The translations under genes were made by a program, and so were the position numbers. Shown here piece by piece: positions 1,984 through 31,263 of a stretch of DNA of 64,000 nucleotides. The first letter of the stretch is position 1. Every line of letters begins with the position of its first letter. The DNA is from Amycolatopsis balhimycina FH 1894 (GTDB taxonomy: Bacteria > Actinomycetota > Actinomycetes > Mycobacteriales > Pseudonocardiaceae): the NCBI RefSeq assembly GCF_000384295.1, contig NZ_KB913037.1:536762-600761 (forward strand), in the 5' to 3' direction. The notes under the pieces were generated by a model, which saw only the letters and a program-made list of their open reading frames with translations, was not told the origin of the DNA and did no database searches.

Positions 1984-2964
1984 TCACGGAAGTCTCTGCC
2001 CGAAGAACAGGCTGGCCGCGGCGCCGATCATGAGGATCAGGGTGCCGGCCACGACCCAGGGTTTGCTCGCGTCGGCGTCCTTCAGCTCGTAGCCGATCTG
2101 CTCGCCGAGGTCGCCGTAGACCTTCTTCAGCTCCTCGGCGCTGGCCGCCTTGTAGAAGTCGCCGCCCGACAGCCGGGCGATCTCGCGCAGCGACTCGTCG
2201 TCCACGCTCACCGGCTGGGCCTTGCCGTCGATGTCGACCGAGCCGTGGGTGGTGCCGAAGGAGATCGACGAGATCGGCACCCCGGCCTGCTTCGCCGCCT
2301 GCGCCGCGGTGTACCCGCCGCGCGCCGCGTACAGGTCCTCCGGCACGGTCTGCTTGCCGTCGGACATCAGCACGATCCGCGCGGGCGGCGGCCCGTCGGC
2401 CCCGCCGACGACGGTGGAGAAGCTCTCGATCGACTGCAGCGCCGCGAAGATGCCTTCACCGGTCGCCGTCGACTGCGCCAGCTTCAGGTTCTCGATCGCC
2501 TTGATCACGCCGTTGCGGTCCGTCGTCGGGTTGACCAGCACCGTCGCCGTGCCCGCGAACGAGATCAGCCCCAGGTTGATCCCCGGCGTCATGTTCCGCG
2601 CGAAGCTCGTCGCCGCGTCCTGCGCCGCCTTCAGCCGCGTCGGGAGGACGTCGGTCGCCTCCATCGACAGCGACACGTCGATCACCAGCATCACCGTCGC
2701 CCGGTTGCGCGGCACCTTCTGCTCGGCGGTCGGCCCGGACAGGGCCACGGTGAGCAGCAGCAGCGACAGCACGATCAGCACCGCGGGCAGGTGCCGGACC
2801 CAGCCCTGGCTCTTCGGCGCGACCTTGTCGAGGAGGTCCAGGTTCGCGAACCGCATGGTCCGCTTGCGGCGAGCGCGCTGCGCCAGGACGTACCCGACGG
2901 CGACCGCGGCCACCGCGATCAGCAGCAGGAACCACCAGGGCGCGGTGAAGCCGGTCAAACTCAT
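1984..2964 (-). CDS. VWA-domain membrane protein, BatA-like (Rv1481-type)
   Basis: A protein of about 326 residues: N-terminal membrane helix, a second helix near residue 60, then a von Willebrand A domain with the metal site DVSLSMEATD near residue 95, and a C-terminal helix ending near the terminus. The ATG at 2964 is preferred over the GTG at 2970 because it gives an ATGA overlap with the preceding small ORF and has GAGG upstream. It is the last gene of a moxR-DUF58-VWA operon, the order seen in mycobacteria (Rv1479-Rv1481). MoxR ATPases with VWA proteins are thought to act as chaperones or insertion machines at the envelope; the exact role is unknown. Confidence 0.85.
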   Translation of the reverse strand: MSLTGFTAPWWFLLLIAVAAVAVGYVLAQRARRKRTMRFANLDLLDKVAPKSQGWVRHLPAVLIVLSLLLLTVALSGPTAEQKVPRNRATVMLVIDVSLSMEATDVLPTRLKAAQDAATSFARNMTPGINLGLISFAGTATVLVNPTTDRNGVIKAIENLKLAQSTATGEGIFAALQSIESFSTVVGGADGPPPARIVLMSDGKQTVPEDLYAARGGYTAAQAAKQAGVPISSISFGTTHGSVDIDGKAQPVSVDDESLREIARLSGGDFYKAASAEELKKVYGDLGEQIGYELKDADASKPWVVAGTLILMIGAAASLFFGQRLP

Positions 2965-3041
2965 GCGCACACCTCGCTGACGCTCGATGCAGCCTGAGCC
3001 GGCAACGCTGTGTCGAATGGTTCGTTCGCAGGCTCACTCAC
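2961..3041 (-). CDS. 26-codon small ORF carried by a 77-bp repeat, translationally coupled on both sides
   Basis: The GTG start overlaps the DUF58 stop as GTGA, and the stop overlaps the VWA start as ATGA. The predicted peptide begins with VSEPANEPFD and is hydrophilic. A second copy at 30305-30385 has 68 of 81 identical bases and 18 of 26 identical residues. The element ends with GAGG 7-9 bases before the next start, so it supplies a ribosome site to the downstream gene. It may be a true small protein, a translation relay, or repeat DNA that happens to stay open. Substitutions between the copies are not concentrated at third positions, which argues against strong protein-level selection. Confidence 0.6.
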   Translation of the reverse strand: MSEPANEPFDTALPAQAASSVSEVCA

Positions 3042-3982
3042 GCCACACCCCCGGACCAGCGGCGCTTGCGGGCGACGACGAACCGCACCATGTCGGCGAT
3101 CCAGTCGGCGTCCGTCCGCAGCGTCAGGTGCGCCGCACCCGCCCGCCGCAGCCCGGCCGCCACCTTCTGCCGGTGGGCGTGGGCCGCGGCCCCGAACTCC
3201 TTGCGCAGCAAGGCCGAAGCGTGCACTTCGCGTTGTTTCCCTGTCTCCGGGTCGGCCAGCACGACGGTGCCCACCTCGGGCAGGTCGACGTCGCGCGGGT
3301 CGAGGACTTCGATCGCGATCAGTTCGTGGCGCCCGCCCAGCGCCCGCAGCGGCCGCTCCCAGGACGTGTCGCCCAGGAAGTCGGAGATCACCACGGCCAG
3401 GCCGCGGCGGCGCGGCGGACGGCGCAACGCCTCCAGCGCCTGGGCGAAGTCTCCCCGGGTGCCCTCGGGCGCGCGCGGCGTCTCGGCCAGCTTCCGGACC
3501 AGCCCGCGGGCGTGCGCCATGCCGCCACGCGCCGGGATGCGGGCCGTGTCGGCGCCGGTGGAGATCAACGCGCCGATCCGGTTGCCGCCGCCCCCGGTCA
3601 GGTGCGCGACCGCCGCGACGGCGCAGACCACCAGGTCGCGCTTCTCGCACAGCGCGGTGCCGAAGTCGAGGCTCGCCGAGAGGTCGGCGACCACCCACGT
3701 CTCCAGCTCGCGGTCGGCCACGGTCTCCCGGATGTGCGGGGTCGTGGTGCGGGCGGTGACCGCCCAGTCCATCCGGCGCACGTCGTCGCCGGGCTGGTAC
3801 GGGCGGGCTTCGCCGGGCTCGGACCCCGGCCCCGGCACCAGGCCGAGGTGGTTGCCCTGCAGCAGGCCGTCGAGCCGGCGGCGGACGTCGAGCTCCAGCG
3901 TCCGCAGCCCGGCTTCCAGCCGGTCGCCCCGCAGCACCGGGGGCGCCCACGAAGGGCGGGGGCCTTTCTCGTTCTTCGCCAT
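3038..3982 (-). CDS. DUF58 family protein (Rv1480-type)
   Basis: A 314-residue protein starting at the ATG at 3982, 7 bases after the moxR stop. It contains the DUF58 core: ARPYQPGDDVRRMDW near residue 50, then WVVADLSASLDFG, a VWA-like fold with an incomplete metal site. DUF58 proteins accompany MoxR ATPases almost universally and are thought to be part of the same envelope-associated complex. A longer frame upstream reads through moxR in another frame and is not credible. Its stop overlaps the start of the 26-codon ORF. Confidence 0.87.
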   Translation of the reverse strand: MAKNEKGPRPSWAPPVLRGDRLEAGLRTLELDVRRRLDGLLQGNHLGLVPGPGSEPGEARPYQPGDDVRRMDWAVTARTTTPHIRETVADRELETWVVADLSASLDFGTALCEKRDLVVCAVAAVAHLTGGGGNRIGALISTGADTARIPARGGMAHARGLVRKLAETPRAPEGTRGDFAQALEALRRPPRRRGLAVVISDFLGDTSWERPLRALGGRHELIAIEVLDPRDVDLPEVGTVVLADPETGKQREVHASALLRKEFGAAAHAHRQKVAAGLRRAGAAHLTLRTDADWIADMVRFVVARKRRWSGGVA

Positions 3983-3989
3983 CGCCGGG

Positions 3990-15520: not shown

Positions 15521-15632
15521 GACATATCCTCCCTAGGTCACGGCCGCACGGTCGGACCGTCACGGCGCGTTACCCGGGTGAGACTGGCACAAACCGGTGA
15601 ATCCCGTCACCGGCCAAACGGATGGTGGGCGC

Positions 15633-27924: not shown

Positions 27925-29268
27925 ATGATCCAGATCCTCTTCGCCGTGCTCGGCGTCCTCCTCTTCGTACTGCTGACGGTCGGCACCGGGCTCGCGGTCG
28001 CCGCCGAGTTCTCGCTGACCGCGCTTGAGCGCAGCACCGTCGAGGCCAACGTCCGCCAGGTCGGCGACCGCCGGGCGCTGGCCGTCCAGAAGGCGCACCG
28101 GACGCTGTCGTTCCAGCTCTCCGGCGCCCAGGTCGCGATCACGCTGACCACGCTCATCACCGGGTACCTGGCCGAGCCGCTGATCGGCGAGCTCGTCCGG
28201 CCGCTGCTCACCGGCGTCGGATTCCCGGCAGGGTTCGCCGCGGGCGCGTCGATCGTGCTCGCCCTGGTGCTGGCCACGTCGCTGTCGATGATCCTCGGCG
28301 AGATGGTGCCGAAGAACCTCGCGATCGCCCGGCCGTTGCCGACCGCGCGCGCGGTCACCGGCTACCACTCGCGGTTCTCCGCGCTGTTCCGCTGGCTCAT
28401 CACGCTGATGAACAACAGCGCGAACTTCCTCGTGCGCAAGTTCGGCGTCGAACCGCAGGAAGAGCTGCGGTCCGCGCGTTCGCCGCAGGAGCTGGGCTCG
28501 ATCGTGCGCTCCAGCGCCGAAAGCGGCACGCTCGACACGTCCACCGCGGAGCTGCTGGACCGCTCGCTGCGGTTCGGGGAGCGCACCGCGGAGGAGCTGA
28601 TGACGCCCCGCGTGCAGCTCGAGTCCCTCGCCATCGGCGACACCATCGCCGACCTGATCGACATCTCGCGCCGGACCGGGTTCTCGCGGTTCCCGGTGCA
28701 CGCCGAGGACCTCGACGACGTCCGCGGCGCCGTGCACGTCAAGCAGGCCTTCGCCGTGCCGGCCGCGGAGCGGGGGCAGGTGCCGATCGGCTCGGTCATG
28801 CGGCCGGTACCGACCGTGCCCGAGTCCCTGCCCGGCGACGACCTGCTCAACCGCCTGCGCGACTCGCGCTTCCAGCTGGCGATCGTCGTCGACGAGTACG
28901 GCGGCACGGCCGGGCTGGTCACCCTGGAGGACGTCGTCGAGGAGATCATCGGCGACGTCCGCGACGAGCACGACGAGCGCGAGGCACCGGCGTCGCAGCA
29001 GGTCGGCACGGACAGCTGGCTGGTGTCCGGCCAGCTGCGCGCGGACGAGGTCACCGGCGTCACCGGGTTCCGGATGCCGGACGGCGACTACGAGACCATC
29101 GCCGGGCTGATCCTCGAGCGGCTGGGCAAGATCCCCGCCGAGGGGGACGCCACGGAGGTCGACGGCTGGCGGCTGACGGTGACCACCATGGACAAGCGCC
29201 GGATCGCCGAGGTCGAGGTCGCCCCGGTCCCCGCCACCGCGGCCCAGGAGCCGGAGGTGGCCTCGTGA
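27925..29268 (+). CDS. CNNM/CorC-type membrane protein with CBS pair (first of two)
   Basis: A 447-residue protein of the hemolysin C/CorC group. It has an N-terminal DUF21 membrane domain (about residues 1-190, with MILGEMVPKNLAIARP), a CBS pair (MTPRVQLESL and IVVDEYGGTAGLVTLEDVVEE) and a C-terminal transporter-associated domain ending near GWRLTVTTMDK. CNNM/CorC proteins are linked to Mg2+ and Co2+ transport. The stop overlaps the next gene as GTGA. Mycobacteria carry a similar pair (Rv1842c/Rv1841c, from memory). Confidence 0.88.
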   Translation: MIQILFAVLGVLLFVLLTVGTGLAVAAEFSLTALERSTVEANVRQVGDRRALAVQKAHRTLSFQLSGAQVAITLTTLITGYLAEPLIGELVRPLLTGVGFPAGFAAGASIVLALVLATSLSMILGEMVPKNLAIARPLPTARAVTGYHSRFSALFRWLITLMNNSANFLVRKFGVEPQEELRSARSPQELGSIVRSSAESGTLDTSTAELLDRSLRFGERTAEELMTPRVQLESLAIGDTIADLIDISRRTGFSRFPVHAEDLDDVRGAVHVKQAFAVPAAERGQVPIGSVMRPVPTVPESLPGDDLLNRLRDSRFQLAIVVDEYGGTAGLVTLEDVVEEIIGDVRDEHDEREAPASQQVGTDSWLVSGQLRADEVTGVTGFRMPDGDYETIAGLILERLGKIPAEGDATEVDGWRLTVTTMDKRRIAEVEVAPVPATAAQEPEVAS

Positions 29269-30308
29269 GCGACTGGCTGAACATCGCCCTCGTCGTGGTC
29301 CTGCTGCTGGCGAACGCCTTCTTCGTCGGCGCGGAGTTCACGCTGATCTCCTCGCGGCGGGACAGGCTCGAGGCGCTGCTGGAGCAGGGCAAGACGCGCG
29401 CGAAGATCGTCATCAACGCCAGCAAGCACGTGTCGCTGATGCTGGCCGGCGCGCAGCTGGGCATCACCATCTGCTCGCTGCTGCTCGGCCGGCTCGGCGA
29501 ACCCGCGATCGCGCACCGGCTGGCGGCGGGCTTCGACCTGCTGGGCCTGCCCGAGGCGCTGCTGCACCCCATCTCGTTCGCCATCGCGCTGGCGTTCATC
29601 ACCGTGGCGCACGTGCTGATCGGCGAGATGGTGCCGAAGAACCTCGCCATCGCCGAGCCGGAGCGGCTCGCGCTGTGGCTGGTGCCGGCGCACGTCGCGT
29701 GGGTGAAGGTGGCCAACCCGTTCATCTGGCTGCTGAACTTCGTGGCGAACTCGCTGCTGCGCGCGTTCCGCGTCGAGCCGAAGGACGAGCTGGAGACGGC
29801 GTACACGTCCGACGAGCTGGCCGAGCTGCTCAGCGAGTCGCGGCGGGAAGGCCTGCTCGACCAGTCCGAGCACGAACGGCTCGCCCAGACGCTGTCCTCG
29901 GTGCAGAAGACGGTCGCGGACGTGCTGGTGCCGACGGCCGAGCTGACGACGCTGCCGTGCGGGCCGACCGTCGGCGAGGTCGAGCGGGCGGTGTCCTCCA
30001 CCGGCTTCTCCCGGTTCCCGGTGTGCACCGACGACGGGCGCCTGACCGGCTACATCCACGTGAAGGACATCCTCGACCTCGCGGGGCAGGACCCGGCGAC
30101 GGTCGTCCCCGCGGCGAAGACGCGGGCGCTGACCGAACTGCGCGCCGACGCCCGGCTCGACGTCGCGCTTTCGGCCATGCGCAAGGAACGCAGCCACCTC
30201 GCGCGGGCGCTCGACGCGGCCGGGAACGCGGTCGGCGTCGTCGCGCTCGAAGACCTCGTCGAGGAGTACGTGGGCACCGTGCGCGACGGGACCCACGTGG
30301 GCGCATGA
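29265..30308 (+). CDS. CNNM/CorC-type membrane protein with CBS pair (second of two)
   Basis: A 347-residue paralogue of the preceding protein. It keeps the DUF21 membrane domain (LIGEMVPKNLAIAEPE) and the CBS pair (GFSRFPVCTDDGRLTGYIHVKD) but ends after the CBS domain without the transporter-associated domain. The two are probably subunits of one complex. The GTG start overlaps the previous stop. Its own stop overlaps the start of the 26-codon repeat ORF as ATGA. Confidence 0.88.
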   Translation: MSDWLNIALVVVLLLANAFFVGAEFTLISSRRDRLEALLEQGKTRAKIVINASKHVSLMLAGAQLGITICSLLLGRLGEPAIAHRLAAGFDLLGLPEALLHPISFAIALAFITVAHVLIGEMVPKNLAIAEPERLALWLVPAHVAWVKVANPFIWLLNFVANSLLRAFRVEPKDELETAYTSDELAELLSESRREGLLDQSEHERLAQTLSSVQKTVADVLVPTAELTTLPCGPTVGEVERAVSSTGFSRFPVCTDDGRLTGYIHVKDILDLAGQDPATVVPAAKTRALTELRADARLDVALSAMRKERSHLARALDAAGNAVGVVALEDLVEEYVGTVRDGTHVGA

Positions 30309-30385
30309 GTGAGCCTGCGAACGAATCATTCAACACTGCGCGTTCGGCTCAGGCCGCGCCGAGCGTCAGCGAGGCGCGCGCATGA
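30305..30385 (+). CDS. 26-codon small ORF, second copy of the 77-bp coupled repeat
   Basis: It starts as ATGA over the stop of the CNNM gene and ends as ATGA over the start of the next gene. The predicted peptide begins MSEPANESFN. GCGCATGAG is repeated exactly at 30301-30309 and 30378-30386, 77 bases apart, as if a 77-bp unit had been inserted at a single ATGA junction and regenerated it on both sides. The element ends with a GAGG ribosome site for the next gene. The core GAACGAATCATTC is a degenerate version of the 15-bp palindrome at 1361-1409. Confidence 0.6.
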   Translation: MSEPANESFNTARSAQAAPSVSEARA

Positions 30386-31263
30386 GCGGGGTCGAGATCC
30401 TGGCCGAACCGGACTGGCTGGCCCGGGAGGCGGCCCACGTCGAGCGGATGCGCCGGTGGACGGTCCCGCACCAGGAGCGGCGGGCGCGTGCCGAGAAGCA
30501 CCCGGTGCTGGACTTCCTGTTCACCTACTACTCGTACCGGCCATCGTACCTGGAGCGGTGGCAGCCCGGGCCCGGCGTCGTCCTCGCCGGGCCCGCCGCG
30601 CGGCGCTTCCTGGACCGCAAGGGGTACGTCGCGACGGCCGGCGGTGTCGAGCTGGATCCGGCGGGCTTCACCGAGGGCAAGGCCCGGACGGCCGAGTTCG
30701 TCCTCGGCCTGCTGACCGCGACGGCGTCGCGCGCGCCGCGGCTGAGCTGCTTCGGCCTGCACGAGTGGGCGATGGTCTACCGCGAACCCGCCGATTCGGT
30801 GCGGCACGACCAGGTACCGCTCCGGCTCGGCTCGGCGGGCACCGACGCCGTCGTGGAGTCCCTGGACATCCGGTGCGGGCACTTCGACGCGTTCCGCTTC
30901 TTCACGGCGGACGCGCGGCCCCGCAACGAGCTGACGCCGTCGAGGGAGACGCAGGTCGCCCTCGAACAGCCCGGGTGCCTGCACGCGAACATGGACCTGT
31001 TCAAATGGGCCTACAAGCTCGGCCCGTTCGTGCCCGCGGAGCTCGTCGCGGACTGTTTCGAGCTGGCCGTCGAGATCCGGACGCTCGACATGCGGGCGAG
31101 CCCGTACGACCTGGCCGGGCTCGGTTACCCGCCGGTGCGCATCGAAACCGCGCCGGGGCGGGCCGAGTACGCGCGGGCCCAGGGTGAGTTCGTGCGCCGG
31201 GCGGACCCGCTGCGTCATCGCCTGATTGCGCATTGCCATCGCCTGGTCAGCGCAGGACCCTGA
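30382..31263 (+). CDS. Conserved protein annotated in relatives as 3-methyladenine DNA glycosylase-like
   Basis: A 293-residue soluble protein typical of actinobacteria: an N-terminal HVERMRRWTVPHQERR stretch, HPVLDFLFTYYSYRP, then SCFGLHEWAMVY, ESLDIRCGHFDAFRFF and NMDLFKWAYKLGPF. Homologues are often labelled 3-methyladenine DNA glycosylase, but I see no HhH-GPD motif, so the label should be treated with caution. It is translationally coupled to the 26-codon ORF and the two CNNM genes, forming one operon. Confidence 0.65.
   Translation: MSGVEILAEPDWLAREAAHVERMRRWTVPHQERRARAEKHPVLDFLFTYYSYRPSYLERWQPGPGVVLAGPAARRFLDRKGYVATAGGVELDPAGFTEGKARTAEFVLGLLTATASRAPRLSCFGLHEWAMVYREPADSVRHDQVPLRLGSAGTDAVVESLDIRCGHFDAFRFFTADARPRNELTPSRETQVALEQPGCLHANMDLFKWAYKLGPFVPAELVADCFELAVEIRTLDMRASPYDLAGLGYPPVRIETAPGRAEYARAQGEFVRRADPLRHRLIAHCHRLVSAGP

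Follow-up and report, generated by a model that had tools for sequence, protein, structure and literature searches.

In a 64,000-nucleotide stretch of the genome of Amycolatopsis balhimycina FH 1894 (contig NZ_KB913037.1, positions 536,762 to 600,761; hereafter the window), a 77-bp unit carrying a 26-codon open reading frame (ORF) sits exactly where one gene ends and the next begins. In our view it is quite probably one copy of a small mobile element, non-autonomous and of the mycobacterial interspersed repetitive unit (MIRU) kind, which would serve as a translational relay and whose sequence would probably also guide insertion. Repeated copies, presence and absence at the same junction, a bias towards gene junctions, and an exact length combined with an open frame establish both the insertion and the architecture. 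An initial annotation, made from the letters of the window, had described this focal copy as the second of two coupled 26-codon ORFs and had proposed an insertion element, a proposal now supported by nine copies in the source genome, relatives in 50 of the 80 Amycolatopsis genomes searched and empty sites for all nine.

Searching the source genome (a single contig of 10.86 Mb) with a 90-bp query returned nine full copies, the weakest at E = 1e-15, followed by a fragment at E = 2.4e-4; the likeness of the two copies in the window is not a product of chance, and the family, which an absence of copies elsewhere would have weakened, is real in this genome. The nine own copies align without gaps, each measuring 77 bp from the first TGA to the second, and all of them have NTGA at both ends, an open 26-codon frame between, and a frame of at least 130 codons that opens at the second NTG. 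Downstream of the seven copies outside the window lie genes for a thiamine pyrophosphate (TPP) enzyme, a CoA-transferase, a phosphodiesterase, a permease, a glyoxalase, an amidohydrolase and a LuxE-like protein, which are unrelated to one another and to the downstream genes of the two window copies. At one locus (L006) the frame ending in the first TGA has just 72 codons, which means that not every copy follows a long coupled gene. No tandem arrays occur among the nine, and no longer partner with the same ends was seen in the source genome, where everything the 90-bp query found beyond the nine copies was a fragment at E = 2.4e-4 or weaker. A left-end pattern search of the same genome recovered six of the nine copies plus one site with 2 mismatches, an unfiltered sequence model run on the window found both copies with the next match at E = 0.011, and an Rfam search of window positions 30200-30500 gave no match up to E = 1.

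The details reported for the two window copies are borne out. Positions 30305-30385 and the reverse complement of 2961-3041 agree at 68 of 81 bases (84 percent), 7, 2 and 4 of the 13 differences affect codon positions 1, 2 and 3, the amino-acid changes, put at six or more, number 8 with the start codon included, and the overlaps are exact at both ends of both copies. The 9-bp direct repeat GCGCATGAG does occur at 30301-30309 and 30378-30386, with no further plus-strand occurrence in the window. Its reading as a target duplication did not hold up: across the nine own copies TGAG is the only constant part, common to both ends, with an identical run of 0 to 9 bases to the left of TGA, and a fixed 9-bp target duplication was rejected on this ground.

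Empty sites, which the initial annotation had suggested comparing in sister strains, were sought across the genus by joining the flanks of the nine own sites and searching them in 80 genomes, with three places per genome scored. Junction-spanning matches were found for all nine sites, at up to 98% identity among the matches listed. The 20 empty-site loci that were read cover all nine sites and lack the insert without exception (flank identity 84-98%); 17 are gap-free at the junction, three have a small gap, including both loci for own-genome locus L004, and the empty target reads (A/G)TGA at all nine sites and all 20 loci. Any single empty site may never have been filled or may have been precisely cleared. 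For the focal site, the joined-flank comparison splits the source genome into 1-154 and 146-299, and of the 79 other genomes 72 match in one piece (69-96% identity), one matches partially and six are split like the source. These six genomes hold a different unit at the focal junction, 86 bp in five and 80 bp in one, with an ATGA start, an ATGA end and an open frame in all six and lengths that are 2 modulo 3, and the junction has therefore been used by two kinds of relay unit. In one of them (L369, of L369-L374) an internal CTCATGCCGCCGCC perfectly complements the right end GGCGGCGGCATGAG. Two sequence types are also found at the junction that holds the other window copy (2961-3041, between DUF58 and VWA genes), where the units in seven fetched Amycolatopsis copies encode SEPANEP in the source and mostly RELATEP in the six others; this site may therefore have been hit repeatedly.

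The units are strongly placed with respect to genes. Among 92 copies with enough flank, 79 are flanked on both sides by frames of 100 codons or more, the upstream one ending in the first TGA and the downstream one starting at the second, as against 3.5% of 86 same-strand and 8% of 200 other-strand control NTGAG sites in the same flanks. Insertion or survival is thus tied to gene junctions. In the mechanism we propose, the unit would insert at (A/G)TGA(G), either at a stop-start overlap or at a plain gene start, in the reading direction of the gene, and would add 77 bp. A ribosome ending the upstream gene would re-start on the 26-codon frame and, at the TGA of that frame, re-start once more on the downstream gene, so that the small frame would hand the ribosome on and an insertion would cost little and survive selection. 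At the left the element would pair with the host start-codon base and TGA, at the right with TGA and the host bases that follow, and this pairing would help in choosing the target during insertion.

Base pairing between element and target is present as an association in three sets of copies. The key tests took one copy per site (42 Amycolatopsis sites, 56 sites of a second genus, g19, and 29 sites of other genera) and 5000 permutations; a table of 163 copies, a longest-run test, an all-column scan and a flank-identity test used copies reduced by identical first 12 downstream bases, among which some same-site copies from different species stay. Across 122 distinct sequences the host base that precedes the first TGA changes together with element base 22, the 163 copies giving A-T 103 times, G-C 50, G-T 7, A-C 2 and A-A once. 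With one copy per site the two bases pair at 42 of 42 Amycolatopsis sites (38.5 expected), 55 of 56 in g19 (43.2 expected) and 28 of 29 in the other genera (21.5 expected), a level reached in none of the 5000 permutations of any set. Because the one-per-site set consists of different loci, shared ancestry of the element alone cannot create such a link with host bases. On the right side, host base 84 pairs with element base 42 at 28 of 42 Amycolatopsis sites (16.3 expected, 0/5000), and in a shifted register base 43 pairs with host base 82 at 48 of 56 g19 sites (37.5 expected, 0/5000) and 23 of 29 sites of other genera (16.0 expected, 13/5000). In the all-column scan the host start base has column 22 as its top-ranked partner in each of the three sets; for host base 84 in Amycolatopsis the top rank goes to column 42, and for host base 82 in g19 and the other genera to column 43. 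An internal GCTCA complements TGAGC at the downstream start, and this complementarity extends into the host: its longest run exceeds all 200 flank permutations in Amycolatopsis (80 copies), in other genera (45) and in both combined (125). The host left flank also resembles the right end of the element, with an identity of 2.76 against 2.16 in 67 Amycolatopsis copies from which tandem copies were removed (0/2000 permutations).

These segments fall into a consistent structure, in which the left end can be written DTGA-G-Y-GA-G / C-GA-R-C-GA-A-Y, with tandem G.A oppositions, and the right hairpin CC-GA-GC / GC-GA-GG. In the nine own copies 98.5% of 135 structure cells are paired, a share that drops to 18.5-38.5% when the partners are displaced by 1 to 3 columns. 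An alignment of 39 sites, one copy per site, which leaves out 6 of 45 references as tandem or diverged copies, has 96.4% of 585 cells paired, with 31 cells changed on both sides where shuffles give 11.7 (0/500).

The most serious competitor to a guide for insertion, which we regard as possible though clearly the less probable, is that the pairing is a messenger RNA structure selected after insertion, which would mask the downstream start until the ribosome on the small frame opened it and would so tighten coupling. The pairing does lie on the sense strand and at the start codon, and RNAalifold predicts the GCTCA-TGAGC helix there from the nine own copies alone. Against this, folding energies are weakly below those of shuffled sequences (mean z -1.41 for 30 Amycolatopsis copies and -0.54 for 30 others), and the association is present at sites seen in a single fetched genome, with base 22 paired at 24 of 24 (22.2 expected, 16/5000) and base 42 at 16 of 24 (10.5 expected, 69/5000). 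It is also found between near-identical g19 copies, compared in pairs that differ at no more than two further positions: a changed host base goes with a changed base 22 in 27 of 32 pairs, whereas base 22 differs in 10 of the 41 pairs that share their host base. The single-genome sites and the near-identical copies favour choice at insertion.

The family extends well beyond A. balhimycina. The large searches sampled groups under stricter filters, and their copy counts are lower bounds. A sequence-only model matches 50 of 80 Amycolatopsis genomes (E up to 0.01). Matches are present in 86 of 249 genomes and 25 of 46 genera in the family (E up to 0.001), and in 187 of 397 genomes and 37 of 85 genera in the order (E up to 1e-4); four genomes rescored more fully have 85, 77, 81 and 65 matches. 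Across the class the left-end pattern occurs in 9 of 394 genomes, one of them outside the order with 77, and the reversed control pattern has no hit in the table. From the genus matches listed, 97 distinct copies were fetched, of which 88 measure 77 bp and the rest 80 (five copies), 78, 76, 68 and 63 bp. In g19 the length is 77 bp in 72 of 74 copies read, where two hits without a second TGA were skipped and a TGA at 77 was preferred if present. Four g19 loci (L295, L296, L298 and L299) form a subfamily with TGACC in place of TGAGC at the left end, facing left-hairpin bases that are now GG, and the right junction reads TGACC at all four sites. A further genus (g53), Mycobacterium-like by its PbpA, has 65-bp relatives; this PbpA is closely similar to solved chains of Penicillin-binding protein A, which we take to be those of M. 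tuberculosis. In one of its genomes (L324) the 65-bp relative, read on the minus strand with its first TGA at 1503, lies exactly between the end of the PbpA frame and a frame beginning MSPRVGVTLSGRYRLQRL, presumably resembling PknA, and has an open relay frame of 22 codons. The unit lengths of 65, 77, 80 and 86 bp are all 2 modulo 3, since a frame running from NTGA to NTGA needs such a length. Tandem arrays with 77-bp spacing are present in genomes G028 and G038, and further arrays in G215 and G201. Plasmid and phage collections gave no match at E up to 0.01 in three query-collection pairs (two plasmid, one phage). We see about an even chance that the MIRU-like units of this order are mobile elements directed by guides, in which two short guide segments would pair with both halves of a start-codon target, (A/G)TGA on the left and TGA with two or three more bases on the right, guide variants would select different start codons, and the relay would make insertion nearly harmless.

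It appears unlikely that a Y1 (HUH) transposase moves the unit as a hitchhiker of the REP or IS200/IS605 type. Hairpins near both ends do resemble the logic of IS608, and so does the pairing of end segments with the target, as set out in the accessible portion of PMC5934647; yet Pfam Y1_Tnp matched 0 of 80 Amycolatopsis genomes, with a control positive in 5 of 14 known genomes, and it matched 1 of 10 copy-rich genomes outside the genus, partially.

A functional conserved small protein, encoded by the 26-codon frame and spread through the genome by copying, is in our view very unlikely. The frame is intact from overlap to overlap in 90 of 97 fetched Amycolatopsis copies and open in 81 of 83 distinct 77-bp sequences, and its pN/pS of 0.63 is below 1. 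One of the two wrong frames is nearly equal at 0.73, however (the other is at 1.09), and codon positions 1, 2 and 3 vary alike, with entropies of 0.376, 0.494 and 0.432 bits. Some codons vary at the second position while several third positions in others are nearly invariant, the peptides of other units at such junctions are quite unlike this one, and NCBIfam has no match. No in-frame stop codon is observed where 8.9 are expected among 81 sequences when changes are placed freely. Because codon positions vary alike, pN/pS is near a wrong-frame value and stops are lacking, the frame is one that stays open with a weakly constrained peptide, and a conserved small protein was rejected on codon-position variation and pN/pS. 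The weak protein selection at exact element length noted for the two window copies thus extends to the genus, where the dN/dS comparison that had been proposed, run here as pN/pS, gives no strong synonymous excess.

Local duplication or slippage without any mobile family, for which the flanking direct repeat and the tandem arrays in other genomes might speak, can practically be set aside, since the nine copies stand at unrelated loci with different flanking genes and empty sites exist for all nine, and plain slippage, one of the origins offered by the initial annotation for its repeat, leaves copies at unrelated loci unexplained.

Several observations weigh against a guided relay element. The closest empty relative of the focal site has TGAA at the target and not TGAG. 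In the focal copy the 42-84 pair is unformed (30346-30388, G-G), and in g19 and the other genera the same pair gives no signal in the one-per-site test. The column scan also links columns outside the guides, such as the host start base with column 73 (g19, 0/200) and host base -1 with column 37 (1/200). RNAalifold gave no left hairpin, and the stability of the focal RNA exceeds that of shuffled sequences only mildly (z -2.19). Looking for the Y1 domain and for a partner with the same ends brought no mobilising gene to light, with no search made for IS110 or other transposase families. Seven of the 97 fetched copies are without a verified intact frame (two with masked bases, three with length changes, and two diverged with TAG just before the start codon), and two of the 83 distinct 77-bp sequences, with an in-frame stop near the end, were excluded from the stop-codon test, whose expectation drops to 1.9 when changes keep their own sites, so that it is strong under one null only. 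The pairing between element and host could also have arisen after insertion.

The features of both window copies and their neighbouring genes are collected in Table 1.

Table 1. Coordinates of the two 77-bp units, their parts and the adjoining genes in the window
Feature	Position	Strand	Remarks
Focal 77-bp mobile unit (quite probably)	30306..30382	+	First TGA to the base before the second TGA; gapless nine-copy alignment, empty site in relatives
26-codon ORF, candidate relay, MSEPANESFNTARSAQAAPSVSEARA	30305..30385	+	ATGA overlap at each end
Left hairpin	30305..30326	+	Start-codon base 30305 pairs with 30326; TGA opposite GAA (tandem G.A); loop CCTG; covariation
Right pairing segment, GGCTCA	30346..30351	+	Element positions 42-47; complements TGAGC and one host base at the right junction
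Right hairpin, CC-GA-GC-GTCA-GC-GA-GG	30359..30374	+	Counted cells 100% paired in 39 sites
Right junction	30382..30388	+	ATGA start of the downstream gene and host bases opposite 30346-30351
Upstream gene, CNNM transmembrane and CBS domain protein	29265..30308	+	Stop overlaps the focal unit
Downstream gene, 293 codons	30382..31263	+	Pfam/NCBIfam: no match
Second copy of the 77-bp unit	2964..3040	-	
26-codon ORF of the second copy, candidate relay, VSEPANEPFDTALPAQAASSVSEVCA	2961..3041	-	GTGA and ATGA overlaps
Gene upstream of the second copy, DUF58 protein	3038..3988	-	
Gene downstream of the second copy, VWA/BatA-type protein	1984..2964	-	

Three further observations concern places near or resembling the units. 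At own-genome locus L004, around position 1501, there is a 1-base length difference from two relatives just before the insertion, and the long upstream frame stops 4 bases into the unit. At L010, likewise around 1501, a different palindromic stretch, GAAGGCCACCTTCAGGAACTTGAAGTTCCTGAAGGTGGCCTTC, stands beside a short partial match. On the minus strand of the window, at 15609 and 5106, two very short frames, of 47 and 44 bases, connect through NTGA overlaps to longer ones and by eye are unlike the unit.

Among known systems, those that pair with their targets or share the small size of the unit offer partial parallels. IS608 has hairpins near both ends. It belongs to the IS200/IS605 group and recognises its target through base pairing with element DNA, according to the part of PMC5934647 open to us; hairpins near the ends are shared with the units described here, whose strong host-element covariation may reflect a similar choice of target or may have arisen after insertion, and which differ in that no Y1 transposase was found in 80 Amycolatopsis genomes, in pairing that spans host bases on both sides of the junction, and in being a 77-bp unit with a putative relay ORF. 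REP sequences, described in the accessible text of PMC8266576 as high-copy, short, palindromic and thought to be non-autonomous mobile elements, are likewise short, numerous and presumed non-autonomous; our units instead lie at start codons, in gene direction and with an ORF, and no Y1 domain was found in the 80 genus genomes. The bridge RNA of IS110 specifies its target through programmable guide loops (PMC11208160 and PMC11208158, in the portions available). The guide there is a separate RNA acting with a recombinase, and no IS110 gene is linked to the unit here, no IS110 search having been made.

The closest likeness is with the MIRUs themselves, which Supply reportedly placed at DTGA sites in 1997; the empty sites here read (A/G)TGA at 20 of 20 loci. 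Both are short interspersed units at many loci (nine in the source genome, with matches in 187 of 397 genomes of the order), both have an internal ORF that overlaps the upstream stop and the downstream start by 4 nucleotides (9 of 9 own copies, 90 of 97 in Amycolatopsis), and both form tandem arrays. MIRU architecture is described in PMC12548453, PMC4128351 and PMC4213456, as far as their accessible parts go, with a class I MIRU of 77 nucleotides (PMC4128351) and units of 77 and 53 bp at senX3-regX3 (PMC4213456), and these lengths, like the 65, 80 and 86 bp found here, are 2 modulo 3. The likeness being one of architecture, we call the units MIRU-like and not MIRUs. In the literature searched, most subscription papers being outside its reach, we found no report that describes MIRU-like units in Amycolatopsis, none that gives MIRUs a target guide, and no account of how MIRU-like units move, although MIRU-based typing is in wide use for tuberculosis (PMC4128351, accessible part). 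The MIRU-type architecture now emerges as a class that occurs across the order, a single genome having up to 85 matches, and it includes soil bacteria such as Amycolatopsis that are open to study; the units also offer natural test cases of termination-reinitiation through an inserted relay. Whereas the senX3-regX3 MIRUs are said, in what could be seen of PMC4213456, to be restricted to M. leprae and the M. tuberculosis complex, the units here are found in Amycolatopsis and, across the order, in 37 of the 85 genera sampled, and tandem-GA hairpins and host-base pairing are described for them. The architecture itself is known from MIRUs; the base pairing of element and host at the target is new here, and the covariation with host bases is a direct clue, and a testable one, to how these units locate start codons.
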